A stretch of 34,968 nucleotides of DNA from a virus: positions 1-34,968 of IMG/VR virus record IMGVR_UViG_3300027963_000017; one strand, written 5' to 3'. The position numbers and the translations under genes are program-made. Positions 6,890 through 30,876 of the stretch are shown one piece after another. Every line of letters begins with the position of its first letter. Positions within the stretch are counted from its first letter, which is position 1. A model generated the notes under the pieces. That model saw only the letters and a program-made list of their open reading frames with translations. It was not told where the DNA came from and did not search any database.

Positions 6890-6898
6890 GAGTACATC

Positions 6899-6940: not shown

Positions 6941-7007
6941 TTCCCGCAAGGGATGAGGTATGGCTGACTTCCTCTTTTAAGTTGGCCGCTGCTAATTGGA
7001 GAACACC

Positions 7008-7049: not shown

Positions 7050-7054
7050 TTAGT

Positions 7055-7095: not shown

Positions 7096-7097
7096 AC

Positions 7098-7125
7098 TTG
7101 ACATTTGCTGATAGTCTGGTCTAAT
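7098..7125 (+). promoter_or_regulatory. Strong sigma-70 promoter before the scaffold and coat genes
   Basis: TTGACA (7098-7103, perfect), a 16-base spacer, then TCTAAT (7120-7125, 5/6). Transcription would start near 7132, about 23 bases before the ATG at 7155. An internal promoter here would raise expression of scaffold and coat protein over the packaging genes upstream, as expected for virion structural genes. Confidence 0.7.
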
Positions 7126-7154
7126 CGCGTCTAGTTTGACGATAGAGGTTATTT

Positions 7155-7655: not shown

Positions 7656-7664
7656 GGAATAATC

Positions 7665-7850
7665 ATGGACCTGTTTAAACCAAGAGGTGCTAACAGCCCT
7701 CGCCGTCCTACCGACAACAACCAGCAGAACGGTGTTGTAACGAACCCTCCCCGCTATGAGCCATTTGGCGGTTTGTCTGCTTCCGGCAAAATTGGAAGTA
7801 AAAACAAAATGGGTGTTCAAAAGCCCGGTGACGGCAAAAAAGTAATTTAA
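7665..7850 (+). CDS. Small Pro/Gly-rich head-region protein
   Basis: 61 residues starting MDLFKPRGANSPRRP and ending GVQKPGDGKKVI. It is polar and probably disordered, with basic ends. The ATG follows AAGGAATAATC. It lies in the head gene cluster between two assembly-type genes with short gaps. Probably a minor head or assembly protein; family not recognised. Confidence 0.6.
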   Translation: MDLFKPRGANSPRRPTDNNQQNGVVTNPPRYEPFGGLSASGKIGSKNKMGVQKPGDGKKVI

Positions 7851-13885: not shown

Positions 13886-14047
13886 ATGAAAATAGATTTT
13901 ACTTTTGATACTTCATACGGAACGTTTTGCGATGCAATTGTTTTGCCGGACGACCACACTTTAACTGACGATGAAATTGAAGCAATGAAACAGCAACGTT
14001 TAAATAATTGGATTGCTGTTGTTACTGCTCCAAGTGTAGAGGAATAA
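13886..14047 (+). CDS. Small acidic protein between fibre genes
   Basis: 53 residues starting MKIDFTFDTSYGTFCDAIVL and ending VTAPSVEE. It has a helical, acidic middle (LTDDEIEAMKQQRLNNW). TGAGGATAGT supplies the ribosome site and the next gene starts two bases after its stop. The tight packing supports it. It may be a fibre-assembly chaperone or a small tail protein; that is inference. Confidence 0.65.
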   Translation: MKIDFTFDTSYGTFCDAIVLPDDHTLTDDEIEAMKQQRLNNWIAVVTAPSVEE

Positions 14048-14049
14048 CT

Positions 14050-16143
14050 ATGGCAGACCGTTATTGGGTAGGCGGTACAGGTACATGGGACGGAACAAGT
14101 ACAACTAACTGGGCAGCCTCTAGCGGAGGAGCGAGTGGTGCGTCTGTTCCTACTGCGTCTGACAATGTATTTTTTGATGCCAACTCTAATGTGGGAACTG
14201 GTTCATTTACGGTCACAATGGCGACTACGCCTCGCGTCTGTAACGATTTTACTGCGTCTGGACTTGATGGAGCAATGACGTTAGCAGGCACAAATATTGG
14301 TTTGACTGTTAGTGGAAGTTTGACTTTTCAAGCAACAAACTTTTCTGCTACTTATACGGGACCAACAACATTTGCAGCAACAACCACAGGTAAAACTGTA
14401 ACTACTAATGGCGTTGCGTTTGCTGGAGCTGTTACGTTTAATGGTGTTGGTGGAGGATGGACTTTAGGTTCTGCTTTTACTACTACTGCTAATTCAACTT
14501 TAACTAATGGAACGCTAAACACATCAGCTAGTAATTACGCTATTACTGCTAATAATTTTTCGTCTAGCAATTCTAATGCAAGAACATTAACTCTTAATGC
14601 TTCAACATTTTCTTTAAATACTGCATTTAGCACAACCACAAGCACTAATTTTACTTTAAATGCAGGAACGTCAACAATAACATTGTCGAGTAATGCAGTT
14701 ACGTTTAATGGTGGCGGTTTAACTTATTACAATGTTTCTTTTACTCGCACAGCTTCCACTACTAGCCAAATAACTATAGCTGGAGCAAATACATTTAATA
14801 ATCTTACTTTTTCTACTCCAGCAGCAGCTGCTCGTAATGAAATAAATATTGGTGCAAATCAAATTATTAATGGAACATTGACGGCTAATGGTGCTAATGG
14901 AAGTCAAAGACTATGGTTTGATACTGATGCAATAGGAACATCTCGCACATTAACGTGCGCTGCCATTGCCGCAATGACTGATGTTGATTTTATGGACATT
15001 ACAATCGCTGGTGCGGTTGGAACATTATCTGGTACTCGATTAGGTGATTGTGGAGGTAATAGCAATATTTCGTTTGTTGCAGGAGCAAACAAATATTGGA
15101 ATTTACCGGCGGGAGGAAACTGGAGTGACACAGCATGGGCCACAAGTTCAGGTGGTGCTGTAGTTAATACAAATTTTCCGTTGCCACAAGATACTGCAAT
15201 TATTGAAAATGCAAATTTAAACGCAAGTGCAACAATAACATTAGATGTTGGTTTTAATATTGGTTCTCTAAATGCTTCTGGTAGAACTAGCGCAATGACG
15301 TTTGCTACTGGAACAACGGCACCTTATTTGTGCGGAAACTTTAGTTATGGTTCTGGTGTAACGACAACAGGAACAGGGGCGTTTACGTTTACAAACAGGT
15401 CAACAAAAACGCTTAATTCTGGTGGAGTAACTTTTACTCAACCAATAACAATTAATGCACCTAGTGGTGGAATTCAACTTTTAACTAACAATTTAACTTT
15501 AGGTTCTACATTAAGAACCATTCTTACCAACGGAACGTTAGATTTAAACGGTTTAGTTCTTAGCTCAGGTTTATTTTCAACCTCTACCGGAACTAAAAAT
15601 GTTACGTTTAATGGCGGCACATTTACAATTTCTGGCACTTCAACAACCGCTTGGAATAATGCACAGCCTACTAATTTTACGACTACGGCAGGTACAGGTG
15701 TTGGTTCTATATCAATGACGGGTGCTACTGCTAAAACTTTTGTCGGTGGTGGCTCAACATATAACTGCACACTAAACCAAGGTGGTGCTGGTACGCTGAC
15801 AATTAGTGGTTCTAATACGTTTACTAATATCACTAACACAGTTCAGCCTAATCAGATTACGGTAACTGCCGGAACAACAAATACGTTTACTAATTTTCAA
15901 TTATCCGGAACTACTGGAAATTTAATCACGTTGCGTAGTTCTTCTCCGGGTACTCAATATACGTTGTCCGACGCAACTGGAATAGTAACTGTATCTAATT
16001 TAGATATTCAGGACAGCATTGCTACAGGTGGAGCAACGTGGCGTGCGCCATCAAATTTGGGAAATGTGAACTCAGGAAACAATACTGGTTGGAGCTTTGC
16101 TGCTCTTATACTTATAAGTAGTTTCTTTGTGATGTTTAATTAA
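14050..16143 (+). CDS. Large beta-solenoid tail fibre or adhesin
   Basis: 697 residues from the ATG at 14050, chosen because GGAATAACT precedes it; an upstream in-frame ATG at 14008 lies inside the small gene before. Composition is Thr/Ser/Asn/Gly-rich with recurrent strands such as V-T-F-N-G-G and T-L-T-N-G-T. Two related modules are visible: R-Y-W-V-G-G-T-G-T-W near residue 4 and K-Y-W-N-L-P-A-G-G-N-W near 357, each followed by a P-x-x-x-D-N/T acidic loop and solenoid-like repeats. This fits a receptor-binding fibre. The last 12 residues are hydrophobic (LILISSFFVMFN), unusual for a fibre. Confidence 0.7.
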   Translation: MADRYWVGGTGTWDGTSTTNWAASSGGASGASVPTASDNVFFDANSNVGTGSFTVTMATTPRVCNDFTASGLDGAMTLAGTNIGLTVSGSLTFQATNFSATYTGPTTFAATTTGKTVTTNGVAFAGAVTFNGVGGGWTLGSAFTTTANSTLTNGTLNTSASNYAITANNFSSSNSNARTLTLNASTFSLNTAFSTTTSTNFTLNAGTSTITLSSNAVTFNGGGLTYYNVSFTRTASTTSQITIAGANTFNNLTFSTPAAAARNEINIGANQIINGTLTANGANGSQRLWFDTDAIGTSRTLTCAAIAAMTDVDFMDITIAGAVGTLSGTRLGDCGGNSNISFVAGANKYWNLPAGGNWSDTAWATSSGGAVVNTNFPLPQDTAIIENANLNASATITLDVGFNIGSLNASGRTSAMTFATGTTAPYLCGNFSYGSGVTTTGTGAFTFTNRSTKTLNSGGVTFTQPITINAPSGGIQLLTNNLTLGSTLRTILTNGTLDLNGLVLSSGLFSTSTGTKNVTFNGGTFTISGTSTTAWNNAQPTNFTTTAGTGVGSISMTGATAKTFVGGGSTYNCTLNQGGAGTLTISGSNTFTNITNTVQPNQITVTAGTTNTFTNFQLSGTTGNLITLRSSSPGTQYTLSDATGIVTVSNLDIQDSIATGGATWRAPSNLGNVNSGNNTGWSFAALILISSFFVMFN

Positions 16144-16167
16144 GTAGTTTAAGGTTGCGGGGTAAAA

Positions 16168-16497
16168 ATGGGTATTAACGCTTTTCAAAAAACAGGCAAC
16201 ACGGTTACGTTTTTAGCTGCTAGTTCAGCCCCGTCGCCAGTTCAATGTGTGTCAACAACGCTTGGTGGCAACCAATATCGTGTCATTAATACTGGCACAG
16301 TAACTGTCTTCTTGGGATACGGCTCTGATGCGGCTAACGCTACAACCAATGCTGGCATTGTGACCACTACGGGTCCTGCGTTTCCGATACTGCCGAACAC
16401 GGATGAGATTTTAACGTTTGTGCCGAACGCTTACTTTACGGGCATAACGTCTAGCGGTAACGCGACAATTTACATTACACCCGGCGACGGCCTATAA
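16168..16497 (+). CDS. Small beta-sandwich structural protein (paralogue A)
   Basis: 109 residues, beta-rich, starting MGINAFQKTGNTVTFLAASS and ending G-N-A-T-I-Y-I-T-P-G-D-G-L. The ending and overall pattern match the protein at 25832-26173 (G-T-A-T-V-Y-V-T-P-G-E-G-L), so the two are paralogues on opposite sides of the tail-ejection block. The ribosome site is GCGGGGTAAAA. Probably a virion surface or tail protein; exact role unknown. Confidence 0.65.
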   Translation: MGINAFQKTGNTVTFLAASSAPSPVQCVSTTLGGNQYRVINTGTVTVFLGYGSDAANATTNAGIVTTTGPAFPILPNTDEILTFVPNAYFTGITSSGNATIYITPGDGL

Positions 16498-16506
16498 GGA
16501 GTAACT

Positions 16507-16890
16507 ATGTTAAAGGTATCGGGTGGAGGAGGAAGTGGAAGTAATGGAACAGTAACTACTATCAATACTGGTACTGGTTTAACTGGTGGACCTATTACGT
16601 CTAATGGAACAATAAGCCTTGCTAATACGGCTGTATCTGCTGGCTCTTACGGAACTGCTACTCAGGTACCTCAAGTAACCATTGATGCTCAAGGTCGCAT
16701 TACTAGCGCGTCCAATGTAACTATTTTATTGTCTACTGGAAACAATGTAGCGGTTAATTTGGCTACGATTACAGCCAACACATCGGCTAACGCTACGTTT
16801 GCAACAGCTAGTTTGCCGTTAATTCCTGCTGGATATTTGTTTTTAAATTTGAATGGCACATTGGTTAAAGTTCCATACTACGGAGTTTAA
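16507..16890 (+). CDS. Short tail fibre protein
   Basis: 127 residues. It has the common fibre signature T-G-T-G-L-T-G-G-P-I near residue 22, then G-T-I-S-L-A-N-T-A-V and V-T-I-D-A-Q-G-R-I-T, a triple-beta-helix type stem found in many phage fibres. The C-terminus (YLFLNLNGTLVKVPYYGV) is a compact tip-like domain. GGAGTAACT precedes the ATG and the next gene follows directly. Confidence 0.75.
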   Translation: MLKVSGGGGSGSNGTVTTINTGTGLTGGPITSNGTISLANTAVSAGSYGTATQVPQVTIDAQGRITSASNVTILLSTGNNVAVNLATITANTSANATFATASLPLIPAGYLFLNLNGTLVKVPYYGV

Positions 16891-17112
16891 ATGGACGGAC
16901 AATCTTTATTTAACTTGGTCGTTGGCGTTGCTGCTTTCTTTGGTGGCTGGACGTTAAACAACATTACACGGATGCTTAACCGTATTGACGATGATGTTCG
17001 TGAGATACCTCACTTATATGTGAGCAAAGATGATTACAAGACAGACATTGCTGAGATTAAAGGAATGTTGAGCAAGATATTTGACCGATTAGATGATAAG
17101 GCAGACAAATAA
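16891..17112 (+). CDS. Small membrane protein with C-terminal coiled coil
   Basis: 73 residues. An N-terminal membrane segment (FNLVVGVAAFFGGWTLNNIT) is followed by a charged, helical domain ending D-E-I/A-E-I-K-G-M-L-S-K-I-F-D-R-L-D-D-K-A-D-K. This resembles small phage membrane proteins annotated as holin- or spanin-associated. It has no lipobox. It lies among fibre genes, away from the holin and endolysin at 26430-27283. The start is immediately after the fibre stop; its stop overlaps the next ATG. Confidence 0.65.
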   Translation: MDGQSLFNLVVGVAAFFGGWTLNNITRMLNRIDDDVREIPHLYVSKDDYKTDIAEIKGMLSKIFDRLDDKADK

Positions 17113-17462
17113 TGAACATGGAAACTCTCTCTACTGTTGAGTATGGGAACGATGAGTCCTTAGGAGAGTTTTTGTTTGAAAATGGTCTGCAACACAAGTT
17201 ATTTCAAGAGATATTCATGGATAGCGGCATTTCGGTGCCTATTTACCCCATTATTGATGCCCAAACAGACAATTTAGATGACTGGTTATTGGCTCATCAG
17301 GTAGAACATCAAGCGTTTGCGGGGCTATTAGAGCTTAATAATCCGTTCAATATGTTGGACGTAGACTTTAATAATGAGTCAGATTTTTATGATTGGATAG
17401 CCAGCCATTTGTACATACATCAGCAAATTGTGGCGTCCCTAGGAATTTCTGAGGCAAATTAA
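17112..17462 (+). CDS. Conserved acidic phage protein
   Basis: 116 residues, acidic, with a repeated L-x-x-H-x-x-E/I-H-Q pattern (WLLAHQVEHQAFAGLLELNN and WIASHLYIHQQIVASLGI) that suggests a duplicated helical unit of about 50 residues. The ATG overlaps the previous stop (TAATG); an ATG six bases later is also possible. Position between the fibre genes and the giant repeat protein suggests a virion or assembly protein. Family function unknown to me. Confidence 0.65.
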   Translation: MNMETLSTVEYGNDESLGEFLFENGLQHKLFQEIFMDSGISVPIYPIIDAQTDNLDDWLLAHQVEHQAFAGLLELNNPFNMLDVDFNNESDFYDWIASHLYIHQQIVASLGISEAN

Positions 17463-17511
17463 AAATGTTTCCCCCGCCCCAAAAAAAATCGGTTTTTAGG
17501 ATTTAGCAAAA

Positions 17512-20500
17512 ATGGCAACTACATTTACGCCACCTACATTAGATGCGGCTTCAGTTAAAGCTGCTTTAGCAGCTCAATCAAAAAAAAGCACTAATACTGG
17601 TTCTGATTTTGCGTTTCATAATCTTAATTACGGCGATGGAAACAGCCTTCTTATTGGTTATTGGACCACACAAAATAAAGATAATTTACTTGCTAAGTAC
17701 AATATTCCGGGACTTAATCTTAAATCTGTAAACGCAAATATAGTAACTGGAGCGGCGTTATTTGGAATTAATAAATACGTTATTGATGGTTCTCGTGTTG
17801 AGTATTTAGGGGATATGAATAAAGCGGCTAAACAAGCCGGAATAGAAACAAAAGGGAAGTCAAAAAAACAAATTTACGAAGAATTAAACCAAAAAGGTAA
17901 GGGTTTGTATGCTGTTGTTTCCAGAGGGGGAAACACAAAAAATCATTTTACTTCTTTATATAGAGAAGAAGGGAATACATTAGTTCCTGTTAAAAATTTT
18001 GATGGAAGTTATGCTTCACAAGAATTTAATTCTGATTGGAAAAGAAAAACAGAAACTATTACTGAACAAATAGTTAATAGTCCAATTGTAAGACTTTATG
18101 CAGGTATTGTAACTGGAGGAATGAGTTTAACAACTCAACTTGCTACAAATGCTTTATTTGATATTGCTCAAGGAAAGTCATCTCAAGATGTTATTAGAGG
18201 CATTGTTGGCACAGTTGCCGCTAACGAAGTTGTTGGAGTTTTAAAAGGAATAAACCAACAAATTGCTGGAGTTGGTCCACAATTTTTTAAAGACGATGTT
18301 GTTTCAGCGTTAGCTAATGCTGAGAGACAAGCAGTATATGCTCTTGCAACTAATCAAGATGTTGGTACCGCTGCGTTAGCAGGTGCTGCTGGTGGAGGTG
18401 CTGCAAGCCTTTCTTCTTTGCTTACAGACGATAAGTTACTGCAACAAGCAGCAGGTGAATTTGTTAAAAGTCTTGCCTCTGGAACAAATTTACAAATAGC
18501 ATTAAATGATGCTTTATCTGGATACCTTTTAGATTCAGCTCTGGCAAAAGACGAGGCAGAAAAAGCAATAAAAAAACAAGTTGCTGCTGATATAGAAAAT
18601 ATTGAGTTTAGCAAGTTAAGTGATTCTCAAGCAGAATTTCTAAAAAATACGTATGTTCAATTAGTTGGCTCGGATATTGACGGAAGAACTGTAATGGCAG
18701 CAGAAATGTCTGCTGCACCATCAGAGGATTGGCCTAAAATTTTTCCTGAAGCTGATTTTAGATACGACCCAGCTGGAAAAGTAGGAAACGTATTTCAAGT
18801 AACCAATAATCAAGGCGAGGCAATTTTAGCTAGGGAGATTACAAATCCCGACGGCGTAAAATTTTATTTTTACTACAACAATGCAACTGGAGAAACAGGA
18901 GTTTCTCAATATGTATTGGGTTCTGGCAAAACTCTTGAAGAACAATTTTCTATCAATGTAGATGCACAAATTCCTGAAACTAAATTATTAAATTTAATTA
19001 ACTCTGGTGCCAATCTCAGCACAGGAAATGTAAGCGTTGGTGGAGGTAATAACGTAACTAGCAATATTGCAGACGTAATTATTAATAGCGGTAATGTTGT
19101 AAGTGACGTAAGCAATGTTGCAACTGGAAACGTAACTACAGGTAATGTAAGTACGGATAACGTTAGTACAGGTAACGTTAGTATCGATGGTGGCAATACA
19201 ACTAGCGATGTAATAAATCTAATTAACTCTGGTGCTAATGTAAGCACAGGTAATGTAAGTCTCGACAATGTAAGCACTAGCAATGTTAGTACAGGTAACG
19301 TGGCAACAGGAAACGTTAATGTAACTAGCGATGTAATAAATTTAATCAGCTCTGGCGGCAATGTAAGCAGTAACGTTGGAAACGTAACTATTGATAATGG
19401 CAACGTTGCAAGCAATATAAGTGACGTAGGAAACGTAACGCTTACAGGCGGCAATGTAGTAAGCAATGTTGGCAACGTAACTCTTGATGCCGGAAACGTA
19501 GTTAGTAATGTAGGCAACGTAACAGTAGAGGCAGGAAACACTACAAGCGATTTACTAAACTTAATTGCTACAGGAAGCAACGTAACCATTGATGCTGGTA
19601 ACGTGACTAGTAATGTTGCAAATGTAACTAGCAATGTTAGCGATGTAATTAGCGATACAGGTAATGTAACTACTGATGCAGGGAACGTAGTCATTACTGG
19701 CGGCAACGTAGCAGCCAATGTAACGAATACAACGAGCGATTTAATCAACTTAATTAATTCTGGTGCTAACGTAACTAACGATGTGGGTAATGTAACCCTC
19801 ACCGGAGGAAACGTAACAAGTAACGTAGTTGACGAGATTAGTAATGTTGGCAATGTAACTATTGCGGATGCAAACGTAACTAGCAACTTAGGTAATGTCA
19901 CTCTTACCACCGGTAATACTACAGCTGATTTAATTAACTTAATAAATTCAGGTAGCAATGTTAGTAATGTAGTTATTGATTCCGGCAACGTTACAAGCAA
20001 CGTAAGCAACGTAGCCAGCAACGTAGTTATTGATTCGGGGAACGTAACTAGCAATTTAGCGAATGTAGTTATCGACTCTGGAAATGTAGCCAGTAATTTA
20101 AGTAACGTAATTATTGATTCAGGTAACGTAGTTAGTAACTTGAGCAATGTAGTCATTACTGGCGGCAACACAACGGCTGACTTGATAAACCTAATTAATT
20201 CCGAAGGCAACGTAACACTTGATAGTGGAAATGTAGCCAGCAACGTGGTTATCGACTCTGGAAACGTAACTAGTAATTTGAGTAATGTGGTTATCGACTC
20301 AGGCAATGTGGCAGCCAATGTAAGCAACGTGGTTGTTGATTCTGGAAACGTAGCAAGCAATGTTAGTAATGTTGTTGTGTCTGGAGTTGATACTAATGTA
20401 GCAAACGTGACTACAGGGAACGTCAGCACAGGAAATGTCAACGTAACAAGTGATTTAATAAACTTGATTTATTCAGGCGGCAATGTAAGTACAGGAAATG

Positions 20501-21138
20501 CAGTTGTTTCTGACGGCGGCACTAACACAGAAAATGTAACTAGCAATGTGGTTGTGTCCGGCGGCGACATTAATACGACAAACTTAATTAGCAATGTAGT
20601 TGTATCTGATGGTGTAGCAAACGTATCAAACGTTAGCACCGGAAACGTAACTATTGATAGTGGAAACACAACAGCAGAATTAATAAACTTAATAAATTCA
20701 GGCGGTAATGTCAGCACAGGAAATGTAACTACAGATAACGTAATTACTGACAATGTGACTAGCAATGTAGTTGTCTCTGGTGGCGAAACAAACGTATCAA
20801 ATGTTAGTACAGGCAACGTAAGTACCGGAAATGTTTTGATTTCAGGCGGTGGAACTAACAACGCAAATGCTTCTGTTGAAAACGTAAGTAGCAATGTGTC
20901 TACGCCTAGAAACAATACTATTTTGTTGTCTTTGTTAAATCAGCCTATTAATAGAGAAATTTTACCGATGAGAACGCCTAGTCAGACTAATGCTTCTCCG
21001 GGTAGTGCTGCATTAGCGCAAGCGTTACGTATTGGAGATGCTGGTGCTCCGGTATTTGGTGGTGACAAAGAGAAAAGTAAGCGGTCTGGCTGGAACGTAG
21101 AATCGTTACGTTATATGGGTAATTCGGAGGATAAATGA
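17512..21138 (+). CDS. Giant Asn-Val repeat virion protein
   Basis: 1208 residues, the largest protein here. Residues 1-490 are a mixed domain with an Ala/Gly-rich helical, membrane-interaction-like stretch (TAALAGAAGGGAASLSSLL near 288). Residues about 491-1133 are degenerate repeats of G-N-V and S-N-V units, interrupted nine times by D-L-I-N-L-I-N-S-G. A conserved-looking C-terminus (SPGSAALAQALRIGDAGAPV) and the following ejection-type genes suggest a virion or ejected protein, or a very long fibre. It has no recognisable enzyme domain. The stop overlaps the next gene by four bases (ATGA). AGGATTTAG is a weakish ribosome site. Confidence 0.7.
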   Translation: MATTFTPPTLDAASVKAALAAQSKKSTNTGSDFAFHNLNYGDGNSLLIGYWTTQNKDNLLAKYNIPGLNLKSVNANIVTGAALFGINKYVIDGSRVEYLGDMNKAAKQAGIETKGKSKKQIYEELNQKGKGLYAVVSRGGNTKNHFTSLYREEGNTLVPVKNFDGSYASQEFNSDWKRKTETITEQIVNSPIVRLYAGIVTGGMSLTTQLATNALFDIAQGKSSQDVIRGIVGTVAANEVVGVLKGINQQIAGVGPQFFKDDVVSALANAERQAVYALATNQDVGTAALAGAAGGGAASLSSLLTDDKLLQQAAGEFVKSLASGTNLQIALNDALSGYLLDSALAKDEAEKAIKKQVAADIENIEFSKLSDSQAEFLKNTYVQLVGSDIDGRTVMAAEMSAAPSEDWPKIFPEADFRYDPAGKVGNVFQVTNNQGEAILAREITNPDGVKFYFYYNNATGETGVSQYVLGSGKTLEEQFSINVDAQIPETKLLNLINSGANLSTGNVSVGGGNNVTSNIADVIINSGNVVSDVSNVATGNVTTGNVSTDNVSTGNVSIDGGNTTSDVINLINSGANVSTGNVSLDNVSTSNVSTGNVATGNVNVTSDVINLISSGGNVSSNVGNVTIDNGNVASNISDVGNVTLTGGNVVSNVGNVTLDAGNVVSNVGNVTVEAGNTTSDLLNLIATGSNVTIDAGNVTSNVANVTSNVSDVISDTGNVTTDAGNVVITGGNVAANVTNTTSDLINLINSGANVTNDVGNVTLTGGNVTSNVVDEISNVGNVTIADANVTSNLGNVTLTTGNTTADLINLINSGSNVSNVVIDSGNVTSNVSNVASNVVIDSGNVTSNLANVVIDSGNVASNLSNVIIDSGNVVSNLSNVVITGGNTTADLINLINSEGNVTLDSGNVASNVVIDSGNVTSNLSNVVIDSGNVAANVSNVVVDSGNVASNVSNVVVSGVDTNVANVTTGNVSTGNVNVTSDLINLIYSGGNVSTGNAVVSDGGTNTENVTSNVVVSGGDINTTNLISNVVVSDGVANVSNVSTGNVTIDSGNTTAELINLINSGGNVSTGNVTTDNVITDNVTSNVVVSGGETNVSNVSTGNVSTGNVLISGGGTNNANASVENVSSNVSTPRNNTILLSLLNQPINREILPMRTPSQTNASPGSAALAQALRIGDAGAPVFGGDKEKSKRSGWNVESLRYMGNSEDK
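18985..20910 (+). repeat. Degenerate in-frame Asn-Val repeat array
   Basis: About 1.9 kb encoding short units of five to nine residues centred on Asn-Val (G-N-V-x-S-N-V). Nine D-L-I-N-L-I-N-S-G markers occur near 18991, 19215, 19337, 19557, 19747, 19935, 20187, 20459 and 20685, with spacings from about 120 to 270 bases. The Asn-Val pair is written with at least six codon combinations (AACGTA, AATGTA, AACGTT, AATGTT, AACGTG, AATGTG), so the protein pattern is kept while the DNA has diverged. Confidence 0.85.
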
Positions 21139-22139
21139 ACAAAAAAATAGCACGGCTGTTAAAGGCTGACATTCAAGAATCTAGTGATTTAAGAGAAATT
21201 GCTAGGATGCTTGCCGGTAAAGGGCGGGGAGGCGATAGCTTACTTGCCCACATAACTCCGAAAGAAGCCGAGATTCTTAAAGAAGCTGGCGGCGCAGGAA
21301 CTACAAATCCTGAAACGGGATTGTTAGAATTCTTTGATTTTTCTAACTACGATAGTTCTTCCGGCTCGGCTGACCGAGAGTATGTTCCTACGTTTGGTGA
21401 TTACTCGGTTCCTGCTCAGCCAGATGCTCCTAATGTTGTTCCTACGTTTGGTGATTTTTCGGTACCTGCACAACCAGTTTCCCCTACTTCTACAGGAGGA
21501 GGTTATCAAAATTTTGCAGAAATAGGTTCGTCACCAGAACAAGCGGGTCAATCTTTTGCTTTGACTCAGCAAGGATTTCCTGCTGGAGCAGAAGCAGCTG
21601 CTAAAGAAAGACAAGCGTTAATTGGAAAAGGCGGGGCCGCTGGTGATAAAGAAAAACCATTTTTAAGTAATGAACAAATGGTTCGTCTTGGCTTAGCTGG
21701 TGGCTTGGGTGTCTACGGAGCAATGCAACAGAAAAAAGCAGCAGACCAAGCTCAAAAAGCCGCGGGAGAACAAAAAGCTGTTGCTAAGCCTTATCAAGAT
21801 GAAGGCAGAAAACTGATAGAAGCTGCACAGCGTGGTGAATTGACAGCGGCTGGACAGCAACAGCTACAAGGGCTACAAGCGCAATTAGCGCAGGGTGCTG
21901 AAGCTAGGGGTGGTGTTGGTGCGGCTCAAGCGGCTGCTCAAGCACAGGCTTTCCGTAACCAGTTGCTGCAAAACCAGTATGACTATGGATTGAGAGTTTC
22001 TCAGATTGGCGACAACATTGCTTTGGGTGCTATTAGAACAGGTATGCAGCTTGACCAGCAATTGAATCAAGCGAACATGGCTTTCTATACTCAGCTTGGT
22101 AGTTTGGCTGCTGGCGTTCCAACGTATAGGAGTCAATAA
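21135..22139 (+). CDS. Probable internal virion protein 1
   Basis: 334 residues. The N-terminus (SDLREIARMLAGKGRGGDSL, then LLAHITPKEAEILKEAGG) is a pattern I associate with internal or tail-associated proteins next to ejection genes in related phages. An 18-residue unit (VPTFGDYSVPAQP then VPTFGDFSVPAQP) is tandemly duplicated near residue 85. The second half is Ala/Gln-rich and helical (QQLQGLQAQLAQGAEARGGV). It overlaps both neighbours by four and one bases. It is probably part of the DNA ejection machinery. Confidence 0.6.
   Translation: MNKKIARLLKADIQESSDLREIARMLAGKGRGGDSLLAHITPKEAEILKEAGGAGTTNPETGLLEFFDFSNYDSSSGSADREYVPTFGDYSVPAQPDAPNVVPTFGDFSVPAQPVSPTSTGGGYQNFAEIGSSPEQAGQSFALTQQGFPAGAEAAAKERQALIGKGGAAGDKEKPFLSNEQMVRLGLAGGLGVYGAMQQKKAADQAQKAAGEQKAVAKPYQDEGRKLIEAAQRGELTAAGQQQLQGLQAQLAQGAEARGGVGAAQAAAQAQAFRNQLLQNQYDYGLRVSQIGDNIALGAIRTGMQLDQQLNQANMAFYTQLGSLAAGVPTYRSQ
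21384..21478 (+). repeat. 54-base tandem duplication inside internal protein 1
   Basis: GTTCCTACGTTTGGTGA occurs at 21384 and again at 21438, exactly 54 bases apart. The following bases are similar but diverged and both copies encode V-P-T-F-G-D-Y/F-S-V-P-A-Q-P. It is an in-frame duplication within a Pro-rich linker. Confidence 0.75.
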
Positions 22140-23629
22140 TGGCTGACCCAATGTCACCTGAAGCACAAGACTTAACTAAACAGCCTAAACAGCCTAAAGC
22201 GTTTACGTTGCCGCCAGCACCTGAGCTGTCTGCTCTGAACGCTAATTTAGGTGGAACTCCGGGTGTGTCTGATTTTACGGCTAAACGTCCAGAACTTAAA
22301 ACGTCTGCCGAGGCATCAGCAGAACAGGAAAAACAACTTGGAAAGCTAGGTCAAGTTGAAGCCCCTATTATGGCTGCTCAACAAGCCGGAGAAGAATACA
22401 AAGCAACTGCTCAAGCTGATATTGCCCGTCAAAGCAGAGAGCAATCTCAAGACATTGAGGCTGGATTAGACCTTGCGCGTGAAAAGTTTCCTTACGAACA
22501 ATTTAAGCCAACGCAGGAAAATATGCAGAGTCTTGCCACCTTGTTTAGCTTGGTTGGCATGATTGGCGTTTCTATGGGCGGTGCTGGAAAGATGTCGGCA
22601 ATGGCTTCATTAAACGCTATGACAGGAATGATGAACGGCTGGCAAAAAGGTCGTAAAGATTTGTGGGAAAAAGAAAAAATAGAGTTTGATAAAAATATGG
22701 CTAGGACAAAATCTATTCTTGATGATGCTTACAAAGATGCTGACCGTGCCTACAAAACATTAGCCTACAACCGTGATGAAGCAATTGCATTAGCTAACGA
22801 ATCTGTTGCCAAACTTGGCAGTCAGGTTGGGAAGCAGATTTTAGAAAAACAAGGTATTGAGCGTTACATTAATTACCTTGATGGCGTTCGTAAAGATTTA
22901 AAAAACGCTGAACAATTAGCTTCTAAAGAAAGAATAGATGCTGAACGTGAAGATAGGCGAGATGCTAGACAAGTTGCTAGAGACGCAGAGGCTGCCAAAA
23001 GGCAACAAAAGCAGTTTGAGAATTCTTACGCTTTGTTAGCTGCAAAACTAGACCAAAAAGAAAATAAGCCTGTAAAAGAAAAAGAAGCTCAACAAATTGA
23101 GGGATTAACTTCTTTGTCTCAAGAACTTCGGCAACTTGAAAAAGATTTTAAACCAGAATATGCGAGTCTTGGTTTGCTAGGTTTTGGTGCAGAAGCATCA
23201 TTAGAAGCTAAACGCCGCTTAGGAACTGACGAAGGCGCAAAAGCAGTTCAATGGTGGTCTAAATATGAGCGTTTGCAAGCACCTAATAGACACGCTTTGT
23301 TTGGCGCAACATTGACAGGAAACGAATTGAAAAACTATCAATCGTTTACTGCTAAAAAATCTGACGACCCAACTGTTGTAAGAAATATGTTGCTCGACCA
23401 AGCAGATTTTTCTGACGCAACCGCAAAAGGACGGTCCCGAGCTTTAAGAGATTCTGGCTACAACGTTCCTGAAATAAGACCAAGAAGTTTTTTAAATACT
23501 TATAGTGGCGAAGGTTCTGGTGTAGATATTCAAACAGAAAGAAAAAATGCTCAGTCTGCAATTGATGCTGGTGCAGATGCTAACCAAGTAAGAGCTAGAT
23601 ACAAACAAAAAACTGGTCAGGAGTTTTAA
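22139..23629 (+). CDS. Probable internal virion protein 2
   Basis: 496 residues, mostly helical and coiled-coil (a long Lys/Glu/Ala/Arg-rich middle around 240-320). A Gly/Met/Ala-rich hydrophobic stretch lies near residue 128 (ATLFSLVGMIGVSMGGAG). A soluble coiled-coil protein with one glycine-rich membrane-seeking segment fits podovirus internal proteins that leave the head to form a channel in the host envelope. The start overlaps the previous stop (TAATG), and the next gene follows directly. Confidence 0.6.
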   Translation: MADPMSPEAQDLTKQPKQPKAFTLPPAPELSALNANLGGTPGVSDFTAKRPELKTSAEASAEQEKQLGKLGQVEAPIMAAQQAGEEYKATAQADIARQSREQSQDIEAGLDLAREKFPYEQFKPTQENMQSLATLFSLVGMIGVSMGGAGKMSAMASLNAMTGMMNGWQKGRKDLWEKEKIEFDKNMARTKSILDDAYKDADRAYKTLAYNRDEAIALANESVAKLGSQVGKQILEKQGIERYINYLDGVRKDLKNAEQLASKERIDAEREDRRDARQVARDAEAAKRQQKQFENSYALLAAKLDQKENKPVKEKEAQQIEGLTSLSQELRQLEKDFKPEYASLGLLGFGAEASLEAKRRLGTDEGAKAVQWWSKYERLQAPNRHALFGATLTGNELKNYQSFTAKKSDDPTVVRNMLLDQADFSDATAKGRSRALRDSGYNVPEIRPRSFLNTYSGEGSGVDIQTERKNAQSAIDAGADANQVRARYKQKTGQEF

Positions 23630-25147
23630 ATGGCTGATGGCTACGAAGACCTAATCCCTTCCAAAACCAAAGGTAGTGGTGGTGGATACGATGATTTAAT
23701 TCCGTCTAAGCCTAAAGCAGAACCGTTTACGGCTGATAAGATTATTCCTGGAGCAATTTCAAACCTTGAAAGTTTGGCTAGGGGAGGCGTTGCTGGAACT
23801 ATTGCCAGCATACCTTCTGTAGCGGGTATTCCCGGTAGCGTTGAAGAATTAGGCAGAGCGGGATTGCGTAAGTTAGGTGCCAATGTTTCTGCTGAGCCTT
23901 CGTTGCCAACCATGAGTCAAATTTATGACCCTGTAGCAAAAAAAGTAAAAGGAGCAATTCCTAGAATCACTACACCCACAACCGAGTCCGGTGGATTTGA
24001 AACCATAGGTGAAGTTGTTGGCGTTCCTCTTGCACCTAAAACAGCTCCTCTTGCTGCCCTCAAAACCAAAGCAGGTAAAGAAGCATTAGAACAAGGTTTA
24101 AAAACCAAGATGGGTAATGTTGCTGACATTATTCGCACTCCTAAACCGATTGCTGAAAAGTCTGGTTATGTTTCTCTTGGAGAAAAACTAGAGGAAAAAG
24201 TTAAGGGTGCTGCTGGAGCTAAGTATGAACAAAGGTCAAAGCAAGCTGAACGTCTTTACGAAGGTGCGTTAGACACAGCTAGAAAAATACAAGCAGAAAA
24301 AGGTTCTTTTGCTAATTCTGCCCCCGGTCAACAACTTTTAAATGATTTAGAAGCATCCAAGAAAGTTATTGCTGGTGGTAGGGAGTACGTTGTTGGCGAA
24401 GACAAAGTAAAAGCTATTGACCGTTTAATAAATGCGATTAAAGGAACAAAAACTGGTGGTGAAGTTGTTCCTGTTGGTAAAGGCAAAGTTTCATCTAGGT
24501 TGGAAACAAGAAAGCCAACCAAAGTAACGGAAAAGGATGTTGACGCAATCGTTGAAGAGTTAAGATTTTTGCGTGAGGTTAATAAACCCGGTACTGAATA
24601 TACTGGTTATAGCGCGTTAGATGCAAACACTCGTCGTGATTTAGTAAACAAGTTGCAGGGTTCTCTTTATAACTGGAGTCCAGAATACAGAGTTGCTGAT
24701 GATGCTTATAAAACAGCTTCTGAAGGATTGCGTCCATTCCAGACCAAATTGATGGATAAATTGCTTAAACGTGAAAAGTATGACCGTTCTGAGTTAGCAA
24801 CAGATACAGAGAAATTTGCTGATGAATTTTTTAACAGCAGAGATTCTGTGAAAAATTTAAAAGTTGCTATTAACGATGATAAGTTTGTGCAAGATTTAAG
24901 CAAAGATTACGCAGCTACCGTAATGTCTAACAAGTCGCCAACAGAAATAAAGAACTTTGCTTTTGACCCAAAAAATGAAGGTTGGTTGACTGAGGCTGGC
25001 ATTAAAGACGTTGTTCAGGATTATGCCAAGAAAGCAACAACCGCAGAGGACAGGCAAAAAATACTTAAAAGTTTTTCTATATGGTCTGCTGCTGGTGCGG
25101 CTGGTGCAGGTACTTACGGAGCATTGCGTTCCGTGTTTGGATATTAA
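23630..25147 (+). CDS. Probable internal virion protein 3
   Basis: 505 residues. The N-terminus carries a repeated short motif G-Y-E/D-D-L-I-P-S-K (residues 4-12 and 19-27), which I have seen at the start of phage internal or ejected proteins. A Gly/Ala/Ile-rich stretch follows (GGVAGTIASIPSVAGIPG), then a long helical domain. The last 20 residues are Ala/Gly-rich and hydrophobic (SAAGAAGAGTYGALRSVFGY). No lytic transglycosylase site is visible. It is the last of the four large proteins of the proposed ejection block. Confidence 0.6.
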   Translation: MADGYEDLIPSKTKGSGGGYDDLIPSKPKAEPFTADKIIPGAISNLESLARGGVAGTIASIPSVAGIPGSVEELGRAGLRKLGANVSAEPSLPTMSQIYDPVAKKVKGAIPRITTPTTESGGFETIGEVVGVPLAPKTAPLAALKTKAGKEALEQGLKTKMGNVADIIRTPKPIAEKSGYVSLGEKLEEKVKGAAGAKYEQRSKQAERLYEGALDTARKIQAEKGSFANSAPGQQLLNDLEASKKVIAGGREYVVGEDKVKAIDRLINAIKGTKTGGEVVPVGKGKVSSRLETRKPTKVTEKDVDAIVEELRFLREVNKPGTEYTGYSALDANTRRDLVNKLQGSLYNWSPEYRVADDAYKTASEGLRPFQTKLMDKLLKREKYDRSELATDTEKFADEFFNSRDSVKNLKVAINDDKFVQDLSKDYAATVMSNKSPTEIKNFAFDPKNEGWLTEAGIKDVVQDYAKKATTAEDRQKILKSFSIWSAAGAAGAGTYGALRSVFGY

Positions 25148-25832: not shown

Positions 25833-26173
25833 TGGCTAATAACATTCCGTTTCAACCGATGGGTAAAACCACTCGGATAAATGTTACAACGACAGCAAAT
25901 ACAATTGCTATTTTGTCTGACAGTCCTGCTAATCAAGTAAGGATTCATAACGGAACTGGAACTGAAGTATTTATTCGTTTAGGTATTTCTAACACGGATG
26001 ACGTTGTTATTCCTACGGCTGGAACTCCTGCTTATGGCGTGCTATTGCACAACAATCAAACAGCTATTTTTACTGCGCCTAAACAAGCAGCAAATACAGC
26101 GGTGTTGTATGTGTCAGCCATTGTTGCTAGTGGAACAGCAACTGTTTATGTGACTCCGGGAGAGGGCTTGTAA
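25832..26173 (+). CDS. Small beta-sandwich structural protein (paralogue B)
   Basis: 113 residues, beta-rich, ending S-G-T-A-T-V-Y-V-T-P-G-E-G-L. It is a diverged paralogue of 16168-16497, with the same length, ending and strand pattern. Placed between small polar and membrane genes at the start of the lysis block. Both copies may decorate the virion. It overlaps both neighbours by one base. Confidence 0.65.
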   Translation: MANNIPFQPMGKTTRINVTTTANTIAILSDSPANQVRIHNGTGTEVFIRLGISNTDDVVIPTAGTPAYGVLLHNNQTAIFTAPKQAANTAVLYVSAIVASGTATVYVTPGEGL

Positions 26174-27672: not shown

Positions 27673-28188
27673 ATGTCGCATCCAGCACAACTGGCTTTTA
27701 TAGCTAGTGTTAAAGAACGCTTTCCTGAAATGTTTCGGCGCAAGGCTGTATTAGAAGTGGGCAGCTTGAACATCAATGGCTCAATAAGAGACTTTTTTGA
27801 GCAATGTACTTACATTGGAGTGGACTTAGCTAAGGGTCCTTGTGTGGACGTTGTGGCTAAAGCTGAAGACTTGACCTATAGCGATGGTTTTTATGAGGTT
27901 GTAGCTTCCTGTGAGTGCTTTGAGCATACGCCAGAGTGGGCTAGGATATTCAACAACATGGTTAGGATGTCCAACAAGCTGGTGTTCTTTACGTGCGCTA
28001 CCACCGGCAGAGCTGAACATGGAACCAGCCGTTCCAACCCTGCTGACTCCCCGTTTACGGCTCACGACTACTATCGGAACATAACGGAAGAAGACATTCG
28101 TAGAGATTGCGACCTTAGTCAGTTTTCCAATTACGAGTTCACTACCAACGACGCTACAAAAGACCTGTATTTTTGGGGCATTAAGTAA
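27673..28188 (+). CDS. Class I SAM-dependent methyltransferase
   Basis: 171 residues. Motif I L-E-V-G-S-L-N-I-N-G-S near residue 28 (the G-x-G is degenerate), an acidic end of strand 2 in Y-I-G-V-D-L-A, and S-C-E-C-F-E-H-T at the motif IV position, followed by a F-F-T-C-A-T-T-G-R strand. This is the small class I fold used on sugars, proteins or small molecules. The ribosome site is ATAGGGGATAACT. It is the last right-arm gene and overlaps the convergent gene by 8 bases. It may act with the two glycosyltransferase-like genes. Confidence 0.75.
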   Translation: MSHPAQLAFIASVKERFPEMFRRKAVLEVGSLNINGSIRDFFEQCTYIGVDLAKGPCVDVVAKAEDLTYSDGFYEVVASCECFEHTPEWARIFNNMVRMSNKLVFFTCATTGRAEHGTSRSNPADSPFTAHDYYRNITEEDIRRDCDLSQFSNYEFTTNDATKDLYFWGIK

Positions 28189-28537
28189 TATCAGCGACTA
28201 AGTACCATTCGGTGATGTAGTCTTTAAACTCAATTAAGCCCTTGCCGGATTGGACGTAGCTGCCGTCCGGCATAATTCTCCAAAAGCTGCCTACGCGCAT
28301 CCCGTTCTCTGTATCGCCAGAGACCACTAAAACCGTGGTCTTAGGAAGCCTTGAGAGGGCTTTTAAGAGGATTTCTTGGCCTTTGCTTATCTTCTCCCCG
28401 TCTCGCTTCCATTCGCCGAACAGGAAGTGTTCCTTGCGTTCTAGGACCATGTCCAGATTAGACGGCAAAACCTTGCCAAGCAGTCCTGACAGCTCCCCAA
28501 AATCAACGTGGGGAGCATACTTGTCGCGCATCATCAT
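28181..28537 (-). CDS. Small possible PD-(D/E)XK nuclease-like protein
   Basis: 118 residues beginning MMMRDKYAPHVDF. N-L-D-M-V-L-E-R (about 27-34) followed by L-F-G-E-W-K-R resembles the D...ExK core of PD-(D/E)XK nucleases, with a downstream S-K-G-Q-E-I-L-L-K-A-L helix and a T-T-V-L-V-V-S-G strand in the expected places. No homologue is recalled with certainty. The ATG overlaps the previous stop (ATGATG). It is the last left-arm gene and ends tail-to-tail over the methyltransferase gene. Confidence 0.6.
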   Translation of the reverse strand: MMMRDKYAPHVDFGELSGLLGKVLPSNLDMVLERKEHFLFGEWKRDGEKISKGQEILLKALSRLPKTTVLVVSGDTENGMRVGSFWRIMPDGSYVQSGKGLIEFKDYITEWYLVADIT

Positions 28538-29271
28538 GGTGCTTGGAGCAGCTGACCTTCAAACGGGTAGGTGCCAACGTGACCGAGATTTATCCACGGA
28601 GCAGCCCATACCTTTTTGCCGTGAGTCCGTGCTTTTTTGCAAAAGTCGTAATCTTCAGACAAAAGCAATTTGCTCTCTGGCTCAATCTGAGTCGCAAAGA
28701 ACTCATGAATGGTCTGTCCATTGTCCTTGTTTTGCATATCCAAGACGTTATTTAAGTACATGGGAACGTGACCGATTAAATCCTCAAAGACTTCTCGCTT
28801 AATCAGCATGAAGCCTGTGCCGCCGTTCCAAATCTCTACTGGCTTATTAATTGGCACCGTTACTTCGTTCTTATAGTCCACCAGATTAACTACAAACGCC
28901 CCTGTATGGTGCTTTAGTTGGTCATTGGGTACACCTGCATCGATAGCGTTACGAACGGTTTGCCAGTTGATTTCTTTCTTCGGGTAGATGCCACAAATAA
29001 TGTCTTTGTCGGCTTCTATCATTGGGAAGATGTCATTGGGATTGAACTTGATGTCAGCATCAATAAACATCATGTGCGTAGCATCAGACTTTAGGAAATG
29101 ACTAACTAGCAGGTTCCTAGCTCTCTGAATTAACGACTCATTAAACAAGAAAGAAAAGCTCACATTCATGCCAGCTTCTTTACAAGTATTTTGAAGCTGT
29201 AAGCATGATTGTGCGTAGAAGCCAAAGCATTGGCCGCCGTACATCGGTGTTGCAACGAATAGGTGTTTCAT
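28534..29271 (-). CDS. GT-A type glycosyltransferase
   Basis: 245 residues. It begins MKHLFVATPMYGGQCFGFYA and shows a GT-A pattern: R-A-R-N-L-L-V near 50, then F-I-D-A-D-I-K-F (the DxD-type metal site, about 69-76), G-G-T-G-F-M-L-I-K-R near 150 and L-S-E-D-Y-D-F-C near 204. It probably transfers a sugar to DNA, a virion protein or a host surface glycan. The ribosome site AAGGGATAACA precedes the ATG. Upstream in its leader (29292-29314) a GGGGC/GCCCC hairpin with a 13-base loop may form. Confidence 0.75.
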   Translation of the reverse strand: MKHLFVATPMYGGQCFGFYAQSCLQLQNTCKEAGMNVSFSFLFNESLIQRARNLLVSHFLKSDATHMMFIDADIKFNPNDIFPMIEADKDIICGIYPKKEINWQTVRNAIDAGVPNDQLKHHTGAFVVNLVDYKNEVTVPINKPVEIWNGGTGFMLIKREVFEDLIGHVPMYLNNVLDMQNKDNGQTIHEFFATQIEPESKLLLSEDYDFCKKARTHGKKVWAAPWINLGHVGTYPFEGQLLQAP

Positions 29272-29334: not shown

Positions 29335-30234
29335 TCAGAGGGACTCGCCTTCCAGATAGCGGGGGTTCAAAATTCTCCAAGCTGTTGCTGCACACAATGG
29401 CACTTGTCCGTTGCCAATGGCTTTAATTCTGTCCACTCTAGAGGCCAACCCATCAACCACTCTGTCCACGTTGGGTTCAGTTTTCCACCAGTTTCCGCAC
29501 CCACGACCAAAGCCAAACCCGGCGACTGTCTTTTGTCCCTTTGCCTCGTCATTGACTCCTTCGTTCCTGTGTCTTTGTAATCCCTCGTCACAGGAGTAGG
29601 CCACATTTGAACTAGTCTTCCCAACCCCACACTCCCATCTATGCCGTTCTGATTCACTTTTCTTGGCATCCCCGTTGAGGTTGTGTAAAACGTATCGTTC
29701 TTTCCAATAACTGAGCCTGTTGTTCCATCGCTGGCTACCGGGGTGGGAAGCATGAATCCAAATACGGTTTCTTTGATGGGGTGCGCCGACATCTGCTGCT
29801 CCCAACACTCCCCATTTCGCATCAAACCCCATGCCGGCAAGGTCTGACAAGACTCTGTCGAGTCCTCGAATAGTGAGCATTGGTGAGTTTTCAATGAATG
29901 CGTACTTGGGTCGTACTTCGCAAATGACCCTTGCCATTTCTCGCCACATTCCGCTTCGTTCTCCGTCAAGTCCATCTCCTTTTCCTGCAATGGATATGTC
30001 CTGGCATGGAAACCCTCCCGATACAACGTCAACAATTCCTCTCCACGGCTTTCCGTCAAAGGTTTGAACGTCATCCCAAATCGGGAAAGGCGCAAGAAAT
30101 CCGTCATTTTGTCGGGCGCACAATACGCTTGCGGGATAGGGTTCCCATTCAACAGCACAGACTGTTCGCCATCCGAGAAGTTTTCCCCCAAGTATTCCTC
30201 CACCAGCGCCCGCGAAAAGAGCCAACTCATTCAC
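29335..30234 (-). CDS. dcm: C5-cytosine DNA methyltransferase
   Basis: 299 residues from a GTG at 30234. All core motifs are present: I L-F-A-G-A-G-G-G (6-13), IV G-G-F-P-C-Q-D-I-S (catalytic Cys77), VI E-N-S-P (115-118, usually E-N-V), VIII Q-R-N-R-I-W-I (154-160) and X G-N-G-Q-V-P (274-279). The target recognition region lies between about 165 and 260. It methylates cytosine C5 in a short unknown site, probably to block restriction. A second long ORF runs through it in another frame on the same strand (29367-30230). The GTG sits only three or four bases after the poly-G, a poor spacing. Confidence 0.9.
   Translation of the reverse strand: MNELALFAGAGGGILGGKLLGWRTVCAVEWEPYPASVLCARQNDGFLAPFPIWDDVQTFDGKPWRGIVDVVSGGFPCQDISIAGKGDGLDGERSGMWREMARVICEVRPKYAFIENSPMLTIRGLDRVLSDLAGMGFDAKWGVLGAADVGAPHQRNRIWIHASHPGSQRWNNRLSYWKERYVLHNLNGDAKKSESERHRWECGVGKTSSNVAYSCDEGLQRHRNEGVNDEAKGQKTVAGFGFGRGCGNWWKTEPNVDRVVDGLASRVDRIKAIGNGQVPLCAATAWRILNPRYLEGESL
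29367..30230 (-). CDS. Dual-coded ORF inside the methyltransferase gene
   Basis: 287 residues on the same strand as dcm in another frame, with 97% of the methyltransferase gene read twice. ATG at 30230 overlaps the RusA stop (ATGA) and sits eight bases after a poly-G ribosome site. An internal ATG at 30107 (MTDFLRLSRFGMTFKPL) may be a second start. Features: SFAKYDPSTHSLKTHQCSL, twice a L/W-P-T-P-V motif, and a C-terminal G-G-K-L-N-P-T-W-T-E-W-L-M-G-W-P. From memory this is a widespread phage protein, often annotated hypothetical, next to or over dcm genes. The segment W-T-E-L-K-P-L-A-T-D-K is the shifted reading of dcm motif X, so part of its conservation may be passive. Confidence 0.6.
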   Translation of the reverse strand: MSWLFSRALVEEYLGENFSDGEQSVLLNGNPIPQAYCAPDKMTDFLRLSRFGMTFKPLTESRGEELLTLYREGFHARTYPLQEKEMDLTENEAECGEKWQGSFAKYDPSTHSLKTHQCSLFEDSTESCQTLPAWGLMRNGECWEQQMSAHPIKETVFGFMLPTPVASDGTTGSVIGKNDTFYTTSTGMPRKVNQNGIDGSVGLGRLVQMWPTPVTRDYKDTGTKESMTRQRDKRQSPGLALVVGAETGGKLNPTWTEWLMGWPLEWTELKPLATDKCHCVQQQLGEF

Positions 30235-30595
30235 TTTCCCCCCCAGGAATTTCTTCGATTAGCACCCTAATAAGACCACCTTTTAATGGTTCGCCTCGAA
30301 TCATCTCAATGTGGTCAACCTGAAAATCATCATCGAAAACACCAGCATCTTGTAAGCTGTCTAGGACGGCTTTAATCCTGTTATCGATGTCAATTTTCCT
30401 TTTATCTCTGGGACGCAAAATCATTGTTATCTTCAATTTCTTGTCCTCAAACTTAGGAATGTTCTTTTCTATAATGTAGTCCTGAACGTCAGTTTTGAAT
30501 TGCCGTCCTGCTTTTGAGAGAACAGTTCTTCCTCGAAAGTTTCGCCAGTAGGTATTCATACTTGGCGGGAACGGCAACTCAAGCCATACGTGCAT
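30227..30595 (-). CDS. rusA: RusA-type Holliday junction resolvase
   Basis: 122 residues from the ATG at 30595, chosen because it overlaps the previous stop (TAATG); a TTG at 30601 adds two. It shows P-F-P-P-S-M-N-T-Y-W at the start and the RusA acidic core K-I-D-I-D-N-R-I-K-A-V-L-D-S-L (Asp69, Asp71) with D-D-D-F-Q-V-D downstream, which coordinate the catalytic metal. RusA cuts four-way junctions made by recombination. The stop overlaps the start of the dual-coded ORF and lies within the dcm start. Confidence 0.88.
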   Translation of the reverse strand: MHVWLELPFPPSMNTYWRNFRGRTVLSKAGRQFKTDVQDYIIEKNIPKFEDKKLKITMILRPRDKRKIDIDNRIKAVLDSLQDAGVFDDDFQVDHIEMIRGEPLKGGLIRVLIEEIPGGESE

Positions 30596-30876
30596 TACCA
30601 AGGAATGTCGCCAGCCATCTTGTTCTTTGGCGTTACCTCTTTGGGATACTGAGCGTCCTTCTGCTTATCCTTCCAGTCGGGGTCAGATACTTTGATGTTG
30701 AAATACTCGCCATGCGGACCATCGTTCTTCCAAATACCAAAGTTCACTATCTGACCTTTGACACAGAGGGTGCCTTTTAAATCAGGGTCAGTATCCTTTT
30801 GCTTGTATTTGTTGTGCGTGATTCTTCCCTTCAGTTCTTGGGGAATAAACTTTGTGTACTCTCTTGCTTCACTCAT
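30595..30876 (-). CDS. Small protein of the recombination module
   Basis: 93 residues from the ATG at 30876, preceded by AAAGGAACCCGCA; a longer frame to 30945 includes a terminator and is unlikely. Lys/Asp-rich with a short beta core (G-Q-I-V-N-F-G-I-W-K-N, Y-F-N-I-K-V-S-D-P-D-W). The G-x-W-K pattern is reminiscent of DUF736-like or OB-type proteins, but this is weak. It lies between RusA and the RecT-like gene, so a single-strand-DNA-binding helper is a reasonable guess. Confidence 0.6.
   Translation of the reverse strand: MSEAREYTKFIPQELKGRITHNKYKQKDTDPDLKGTLCVKGQIVNFGIWKNDGPHGEYFNIKVSDPDWKDKQKDAQYPKEVTPKNKMAGDIPW

Follow-up and report, generated by a model that had tools for sequence, protein, structure and literature searches.

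Locus and architecture of the array protein

An Asn-Val array of 1.9 kb makes up 5% of the window, i.e., of the 34,968-base IMG/VR virus record that was analyzed here as a whole, and lies inside one large open reading frame (P0001), which is followed by three further genes of the same block (Table 1). Its length and position agree with those given in an earlier note on the same DNA, which had described about 640 residues of Asn-Val units. The array is not a free-standing fiber gene but a linker between an N-terminal domain and a C-terminal tail of about 40 residues. An antisense ORF (18906 to 20441, minus strand, 511 aa) was regarded as a side effect of the codon composition.

Table 1. Features of the array gene and its downstream neighbors (nucleotide positions in the window)
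Feature	Position	Strand	Details
Array-carrying ORF P0001	17512..21138	+	1208 aa
N-terminal domain	17512..18984	+	aa 1-491; homologous to L002, L008, L026, L056-L058
Gly/Ala-rich helical region	18124..18666	+	aa 205-385; core QD[IV]G..ALAGAAGG; from alignment
Small beta domain	18781..18906	+	aa 424-465; strands 424-431, 437-444, 450-455, 462-465
Asn-Val array	18985..20904	+	aa 492-1131, 640 residues
First punctuation, LLNLI	18985..18999	+	in ETKLLNLINSG; aligns with pre-linker DEQLLALVNTG of L007/L008/L026
Eight later [LVI][LI]NLI punctuations	19210..20694	+	starts 19210, 19333, 19552, 19741, 19930, 20182, 20455, 20680
Heptad-coherent part of array	19585..20424	+	aa 692-971; 14-mers of NVVIDSG-NVTSNLA type; from autocorrelation and TRF period-42 rows
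Post-linker motif TILLSLLNQP	20917..20946	+	in relatives DTILLSLLNKP, DTILLSLINKN
Conserved C-terminal tail	21010..21135	+	42 aa; ALAQALRIGDAGAPVFGG...WNVESLRYMGN; 46 IMG/VR loci
Downstream gene P0002	21135..22139	+	334 aa; start overlaps array-gene stop; N-terminal GRGGDxxLAHITPKEA motif
Third gene of block	22139..23629	+	496 aa; no family match
Fourth gene of block	23630..25147	+	505 aa; no significant family match

The N-terminal domain is 58% identical to that of the relative L002 over aa 170 to 482; it is also common to L007/L008 and L026 and, more distantly, to L056 to L058, L030, L037, and L060. An AlphaFold2 (AF2) model of the domain based on 11 sequences (mean pLDDT of 46.7) consists of weak helices and a small beta unit, with pLDDT values mostly of 50 to 70 for the helices of the Gly/Ala-rich region and of about 59 to 74 for the strands of the small beta domain. 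The comparison of this weak model with PDB folds gave zero matches with an E value of ≤0.001, ejection proteins included, and the P0001 sequence had no match in Pfam, PHROGs, or the PDB; PDB entry 8h2i (E value of 0.045) and Pfam family DUF6854 (E value of 0.79) were rejected as chance low-complexity matches. The C-terminal tail has a length of 38 to 46 aa in 40 distinct proteins and is also present in two Manatee Spring phage genomes. INPHARED yielded no cultured relative, two environmental genomes being the only ones recovered.

Composition and periodicity of the array

Only 11 amino acid types occur in the array (N129, V125, S88, T75, G74, I40, D37, L32, A32, E7, and Y1), whereas none of its 640 residues is K, R, C, M, P, Q, H, F, or W; the net charge is -44. 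The dipeptide NV is present 89 times, and degenerate NV patterns had 6 and 10 matches in the array versus 0.00 expected from the shuffled window, which shows that the array is not a product of chance. The array contains 65 N-x-S/T sequons for N-glycosylation, which were regarded as resulting from the NVS/NVT alphabet.

Nine [LVI][LI]NLI motifs punctuate the array; their first residues are aa 492, 567, 608, 681, 744, 807, 891, 982, and 1057. The earlier note had counted nine copies of D-L-I-N-L-I-N-S-G at irregular spacing; the number holds, but this word is merely the commonest form, and the first motif has no Asp. The spacings of 75, 41, 73, 63, 63, 84, 91, and 75 residues are indeed irregular overall, with a range of 41 to 91, but those in the heptad-coherent part (63, 63, 84, and 91) are all multiples of 7. 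The positions of N-[VLIT] follow a heptad rhythm, with an autocorrelation of 0.42 at lag 7 for the whole array and of 0.52 to 0.63 out to lag 42 in aa 692 to 891. Elsewhere the repeat length shifts among 5, 7, and irregular values. As the heptad is strong in aa 692 to 971 but weak in the last quarter, the array has no single period. Its full-length copy number rests on one assembly; a 99.8% identical contig from another metagenome (L006) agrees at every position with the final 205 bp of the array, the only part that it covers before it breaks off inside the array.

Codon usage, DNA repeats, and selection

The codons for the Asn-Val pair vary widely, as the earlier note had observed: 8 different hexamers are used, and neighboring NV pairs reuse the same codons as frequently as expected by chance. 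The accompanying proposal that exact DNA repeats are avoided is refuted by an excess of short exact repeats. When synonymous codons were shuffled within the array 500 times, the repeated pairs averaged 66 for 12-mers and 12 for 15-mers, compared with 180 and 49 in the actual sequence; this excess of about 3 to 4 times was reached in 0 of the 500 shuffles. The longest exact repeat measures 21 bp (shuffles, 18.8 ± 2.4). For RecT, which the note had assigned to the phage, the only match was below the threshold (E value of 0.0049; 16.9 bits versus a cutoff of 24). Between blocks of the array shifted into register, pS is saturated (0.7 to 1.0) and pN is lower (0.27 to 0.58), values that compare copies inside one array and do not represent dN/dS between isolates. 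The combination of saturated synonymous sites and a partly kept amino acid pattern suggests that this pattern is probably under selection, in agreement with the earlier claim, and also suggests that the array is old.

Turnover of the linker among relatives

The proteins encoded at the 46 tail-sharing IMG/VR loci range from 241 to 1208 aa, and their linkers are of very different kinds, e.g., NV and GGN repeats followed by polyproline in L002, NATTG repeats in L007/L008, a Gly/Thr sequence in L026, and Ala-Lys-Asp repeats in L035/L036, whose linkers are not cation-free. The linker of phage genome MW202825 is composed of Pro/Glu/Val and that of MW202753 of a short Gly/Ser/Thr stretch. MW202825 shares 90% identity with the window in the major capsid protein and 78% in the terminase, yet its array-gene homologue is alignable over 36 C-terminal residues only. 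A tblastn search of IMG/VR with the array protein gave no matches, and DNA patterns were therefore used to find Asn-Val arrays; apart from one contig (L084, see below), their matches lay in unrelated ORFs.

The supposition that the length varies between strains is borne out by relatives, whereas the array of the window itself is represented by one full assembly. Over 10.9 kb, L007 and L008 share 99.8% identity, with a single gap of 15 bp, i.e., one NATTG unit inside the linker, and L035 and L036, with about 96% identity in the flanks, differ by 53 aa, mostly in the linker; the indel evidence is limited to these two clean pairs, as a systematic count across near-identical contigs was swamped by Gly/Ala alignment noise. 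A function of the linker as a ruler is disfavored because the lengths vary too widely. Since the slot is filled by completely different low-complexity repeats in related and unrelated phages, the array looks like an interchangeable spacer rather than a special fiber.

Probable placement in the ejection block

A gene with the LAHI motif (full form, GRGGDxxLAHITPKEA...NPxTGL) is located directly 3' of the tail-bearing gene in 39 of 41 loci, with an overlapping or closely adjacent start. The N-terminal motif of P0002 equals the one that heads gp46 of phage Venkman, and the motif also lies inside a 759-aa protein of phage DSL-LC04. Matches to phrog_4287 ("DNA ejection protein") were found for Venkman gp46 and for the DSL-LC04 gene downstream of the LAHI-motif protein, and the DSL-LC04 block continues to a "DNA transfer protein." Based on the LAHI-motif neighbor and these matches, the array gene would belong in the ejection block; this placement relies on synteny and is no proof of membership, and neither P0001 nor P0002 matched the ejection-protein profiles of PHROGs and Pfam. 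The DSL-LC04 protein, named "tail tape measure" (L082, 5554 to 7833), resembles the system of the window in its GRGxDxxLAHIT motif, the adjoining phrog_4287 gene, and a linker made of about five internal tandem copies of a repeat (PSYAGMDLSSAQGTLGG), but it is a single fused protein with a different repeat and a different C terminus.

Within the late block, the array gene lies to the right of the tail-tube/stabilization genes and beside other ejection-block genes, which corresponds to the gene-order place of gp14/gp15/gp16 of T7 and gp7/gp16/gp20 of P22. The Gly/Ala-rich helices of P0001 are a further likeness to these proteins, and its high divergence and mosaicism fit the description of podophage ejection proteins in PMC8954989 and PMC10386132. 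The array protein had no sequence match to the T7 and P22 proteins, its weak N-domain model had no fold match to them at an E value of ≤0.001, and a 640-aa repeat linker is not reported for podophage ejection proteins in the cited passages of this literature.

A parallel in an unrelated phage lineage

The scan for Asn-Val DNA patterns detected the 37-kb contig L084 with the gene for a protein of 1255 aa, 343 of which form an Asn/Ile/Ser/Val stretch that is free of Lys and Arg. This gene is located directly upstream of those for an internal-virion-like protein of 241 aa and a protein of 716 aa with an SLT transglycosylase domain (PF01464; E value of 1.7e-9); gp16 of T7 likewise has peptidoglycan-hydrolase activity (PMC8954989). 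In relatives of L084, the matching slot is occupied by proteins of about 210 to 1800 aa with Thr/Pro, Pro/Val, Gly-Ala-Ser, Gly-Asp-Ser/Thr, Tyr-Thr-Glu-Pro, or, in L128, NV repeats. The slot proteins of this family commonly share an LNPG(W/Y/F)...PWGL C-terminal module, and in 6 of 32 the LAHI motif stands at the N terminus of the slot protein itself. The L084/L128 family thus agrees with the window in the slot, the Asn-Val/Ile alphabet, and the combination of a hypervariable linker with a conserved C-terminal module, but it differs in the termini, and searches of this lineage for the terminase and capsid of the window gave no match (the capsid search recovered MW202825 as a positive control). 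The same architecture, even with the NV alphabet, is accordingly found in a lineage without kinship detected in terminase or capsid, and the NV/NI arrays of L084 and L128 probably arose independently of that in the window. The proportion of K+R is lower in low-complexity parts than elsewhere in family 1 (4.3% versus 8.9%) and in family 2 (1.8% versus 4.6%), a comparison that is weakened by the small number of residue types which, by definition, make up such stretches.

Alternative readings of the array

The earlier note took the regular Asn ladder to suggest a solenoid or a very elongated fiber. In this view, the array would adopt an elongated beta-structure, either a two-stranded solenoid whose turns comprise 14 residues each or a stacked Asn ladder, and would make a thin rod or fiber on or in the virion. 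The heptad/14-mer register over about 280 residues with its spacings in multiples of 7, the lack of proline, and the synonymous saturation, which implies a maintained pattern, are in favor of this view. The structure prediction that had been proposed as a check delivered no confident periodic fold: the AF2 model of aa 741 to 1156, calculated without an alignment, has a pLDDT of 42.9 and a pTM of 0.28, and no residue reaches 70. A low score in such a single-sequence run is no proof of disorder, and the model contains only short strands and almost no helix, which is in favor of a rod. AF2 is known to return confident but unrealistic beta-solenoids for perfect repeats (PMC11795689), and because of this tendency to over-call, the low pLDDT counts against a solenoid without excluding it. 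No Pfam repeat family matched the array at E values up to 1. Pentapeptide repeat proteins, including the mycobacterial Asn-rich repeats (PF00805, PF01469), resemble it in their short tandem units, in Asn beside small hydrophobic residues, and in local GNVST pentamers, but their profiles did not match at an E value of ≤1, and the main period of the array is 7/14, mixed with 5 and irregular lengths. This change of repeat length outside the coherent part and the unrelated low-complexity sequences of the homologues, which are unable to adopt the same fold, make a rod or fiber unlikely.

The protein was also considered as an adhesin exposed on the tail surface, with repeats that vary in response to pressure from host receptors. 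The ORFs just upstream of the array gene (14008 to 17112) resemble tail-fiber genes, which makes a tail location possible; receptor-binding genes are typically hypervariable, and NV-rich stretches occur in tail-fiber-like ORFs of other contigs (L091 and L092). Against this, the conserved ends and the fixed neighbor are those of the putative ejection block, the NV protein of L084 is flanked by a virion-structural gene on one side and by ejection-type genes on the other, and the array protein matched no tail-fiber family or trimerization/chaperone domain in Pfam and PHROGs, so an adhesin appears highly improbable. The linker might finally be mostly neutral, with slippage and recombination expanding low-complexity sequence in a tolerant spot without any gain for the phage. 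The extreme turnover in length and composition, the slippage-like 15-bp indel between nearly identical phages, and the surplus of short DNA repeats would be expected in this case. Neutrality is nevertheless quite unlikely, considering that 1.9 kb, or 5% of the record, stays open with an 11-letter alphabet, that pN lies below the saturated pS between copies, and that long linkers recur in the matching slot of two unrelated lineages.

Proposed role of the array protein

The interpretation that we favor, with moderate confidence, is that the array represents the hypervariable low-complexity linker or tether of a putative pilot/ejection (internal virion) protein of a podovirus-like phage. The protein of this freshwater short-tailed phage is probably ejected with its DNA. 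We infer its location in the virion, its ejection, the mechanics of the tether, and the role of the missing cations. The helical Gly/Ala N-domain would be tethered by the linker to the short conserved C-terminal tail, which probably docks on a partner, either the protein made from the coupled gene P0002 or the portal/capsid. The linker itself would be a long spacer that is largely unfolded or weakly beta-structured. As it lacks Lys, Arg, Cys, Pro, and nearly all aromatics, it should neither stick to the packaged DNA nor become cross-linked and could thread the narrow portal/tail channel with the remaining protein, whose exit from the capsid would accompany or precede that of the DNA. A disordered internal core is known from podophage Peru-2, for which disorder has been proposed to ease the passage of proteins through the tail lumen (PMC13320782). 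The detailed linker sequence would be exchangeable in phage evolution via slippage and recombination, but selection would maintain the set of residues used in the present array. The heptad register together with zero proline over 640 aa is unusual for a purely disordered chain and counts against the tether, as do the Lys-containing linkers of L035/L036.

A wider generalization is tentative and rather doubtful at present: several unrelated podovirus-like lineages may possess one ejection-block protein with an exchangeable cation-poor linker (such as NV, TP, GAS, GDS/GDT, or YTEP; single stretches of at most about 640 aa) as a general threading or tethering device for ejected proteins, and Asn-Val arrays would then have filled the slot repeatedly by convergence and be subject to real physical requirements.

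Ejection proteins are described in PMC11440229 and PMC8954989 as being among the least understood components of the virion and as hard to predict or resolve, and no description of such a linker was found in the literature on repeat or low-complexity virion proteins. Homologues with conserved ends but an exchanged middle part represent a natural experiment on the requirements for length, charge, and disorder. The C-terminal tail provides a handle to find and annotate the array gene, which in current records is hypothetical, unannotated, or named "ribonuclease E."

Homologous and probably convergent features

The GRGGDxxLAHITPKEA (LAHI) motif, with which the product of the gene directly downstream of the array gene (P0002) begins, is carried by many alphaproteobacterial contigs (Rhodospirillales and Magnetovibrio; GTDB MAG contigs L061-L081), with several occurrences per genome, and the match is limited to this N-terminal motif. 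These contigs are probably phage or prophage sequences. In the putative tape-measure/ejection protein of phage DSL-LC04, the motif is followed by about five tandem copies of PSYAGMDLSSAQGTLGG and a SDSIPAMLSDGEFV C terminus, two short motifs that resemble each other.

For the phages L084 and L128, a terminase or capsid kinship to the window was not detectable, and their NV/NI repeat proteins are probably of independent origin from the window array. Throughout the family (L093-L145), the proteins in the genome place matching the array gene are low-complexity and hypervariable, including collagen-like Gly-X-Y repeats, e.g., GASGAS in L138 and GDSGDT in L114. The two long antisense ORFs across the array are probably a side effect of codon composition.

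Coordinates of features in the window and in other phage genomes
Feature	Location	Strand	Remark
Antisense ORF	window 18906-20441	-	long, across array
Antisense ORF	window 20469-20915	-	long, across array
SAM-dependent methyltransferase	window 27673-28188	+	phrog_32762, 4e-56
RusA resolvase	window 30230-30601	-	
RecT	window 30938-31735	-	weak, under Pfam cut-off
YqaJ-type exonuclease	window 31940-32839	-	weak, under Pfam cut-off
Array-gene homologue	L005 (MW202825, Manatee Spring phage) 14522-16372	-	named "ribonuclease E"
P0002 homologue	L005 13524-14522	-	unannotated in record
Array-gene homologue	L004 (MW202753, Manatee Spring phage) about 17057-17890		absent from record's annotation
Tape-measure/ejection protein (putative)	L082 (DSL-LC04) 5554-7833		LAHI motif
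NV/NI repeat protein	L084 4061-7828	-	
NV/NI repeat protein	L128 3159-7949		

Since the bulk of the differences in 9.4 kb between the window and contig L006 (99.8% identical) clusters within about 200 bp (28481-28675), a recombination tract is suggested there. Outside this cluster, three neighbouring bases differ at 25959-25961.
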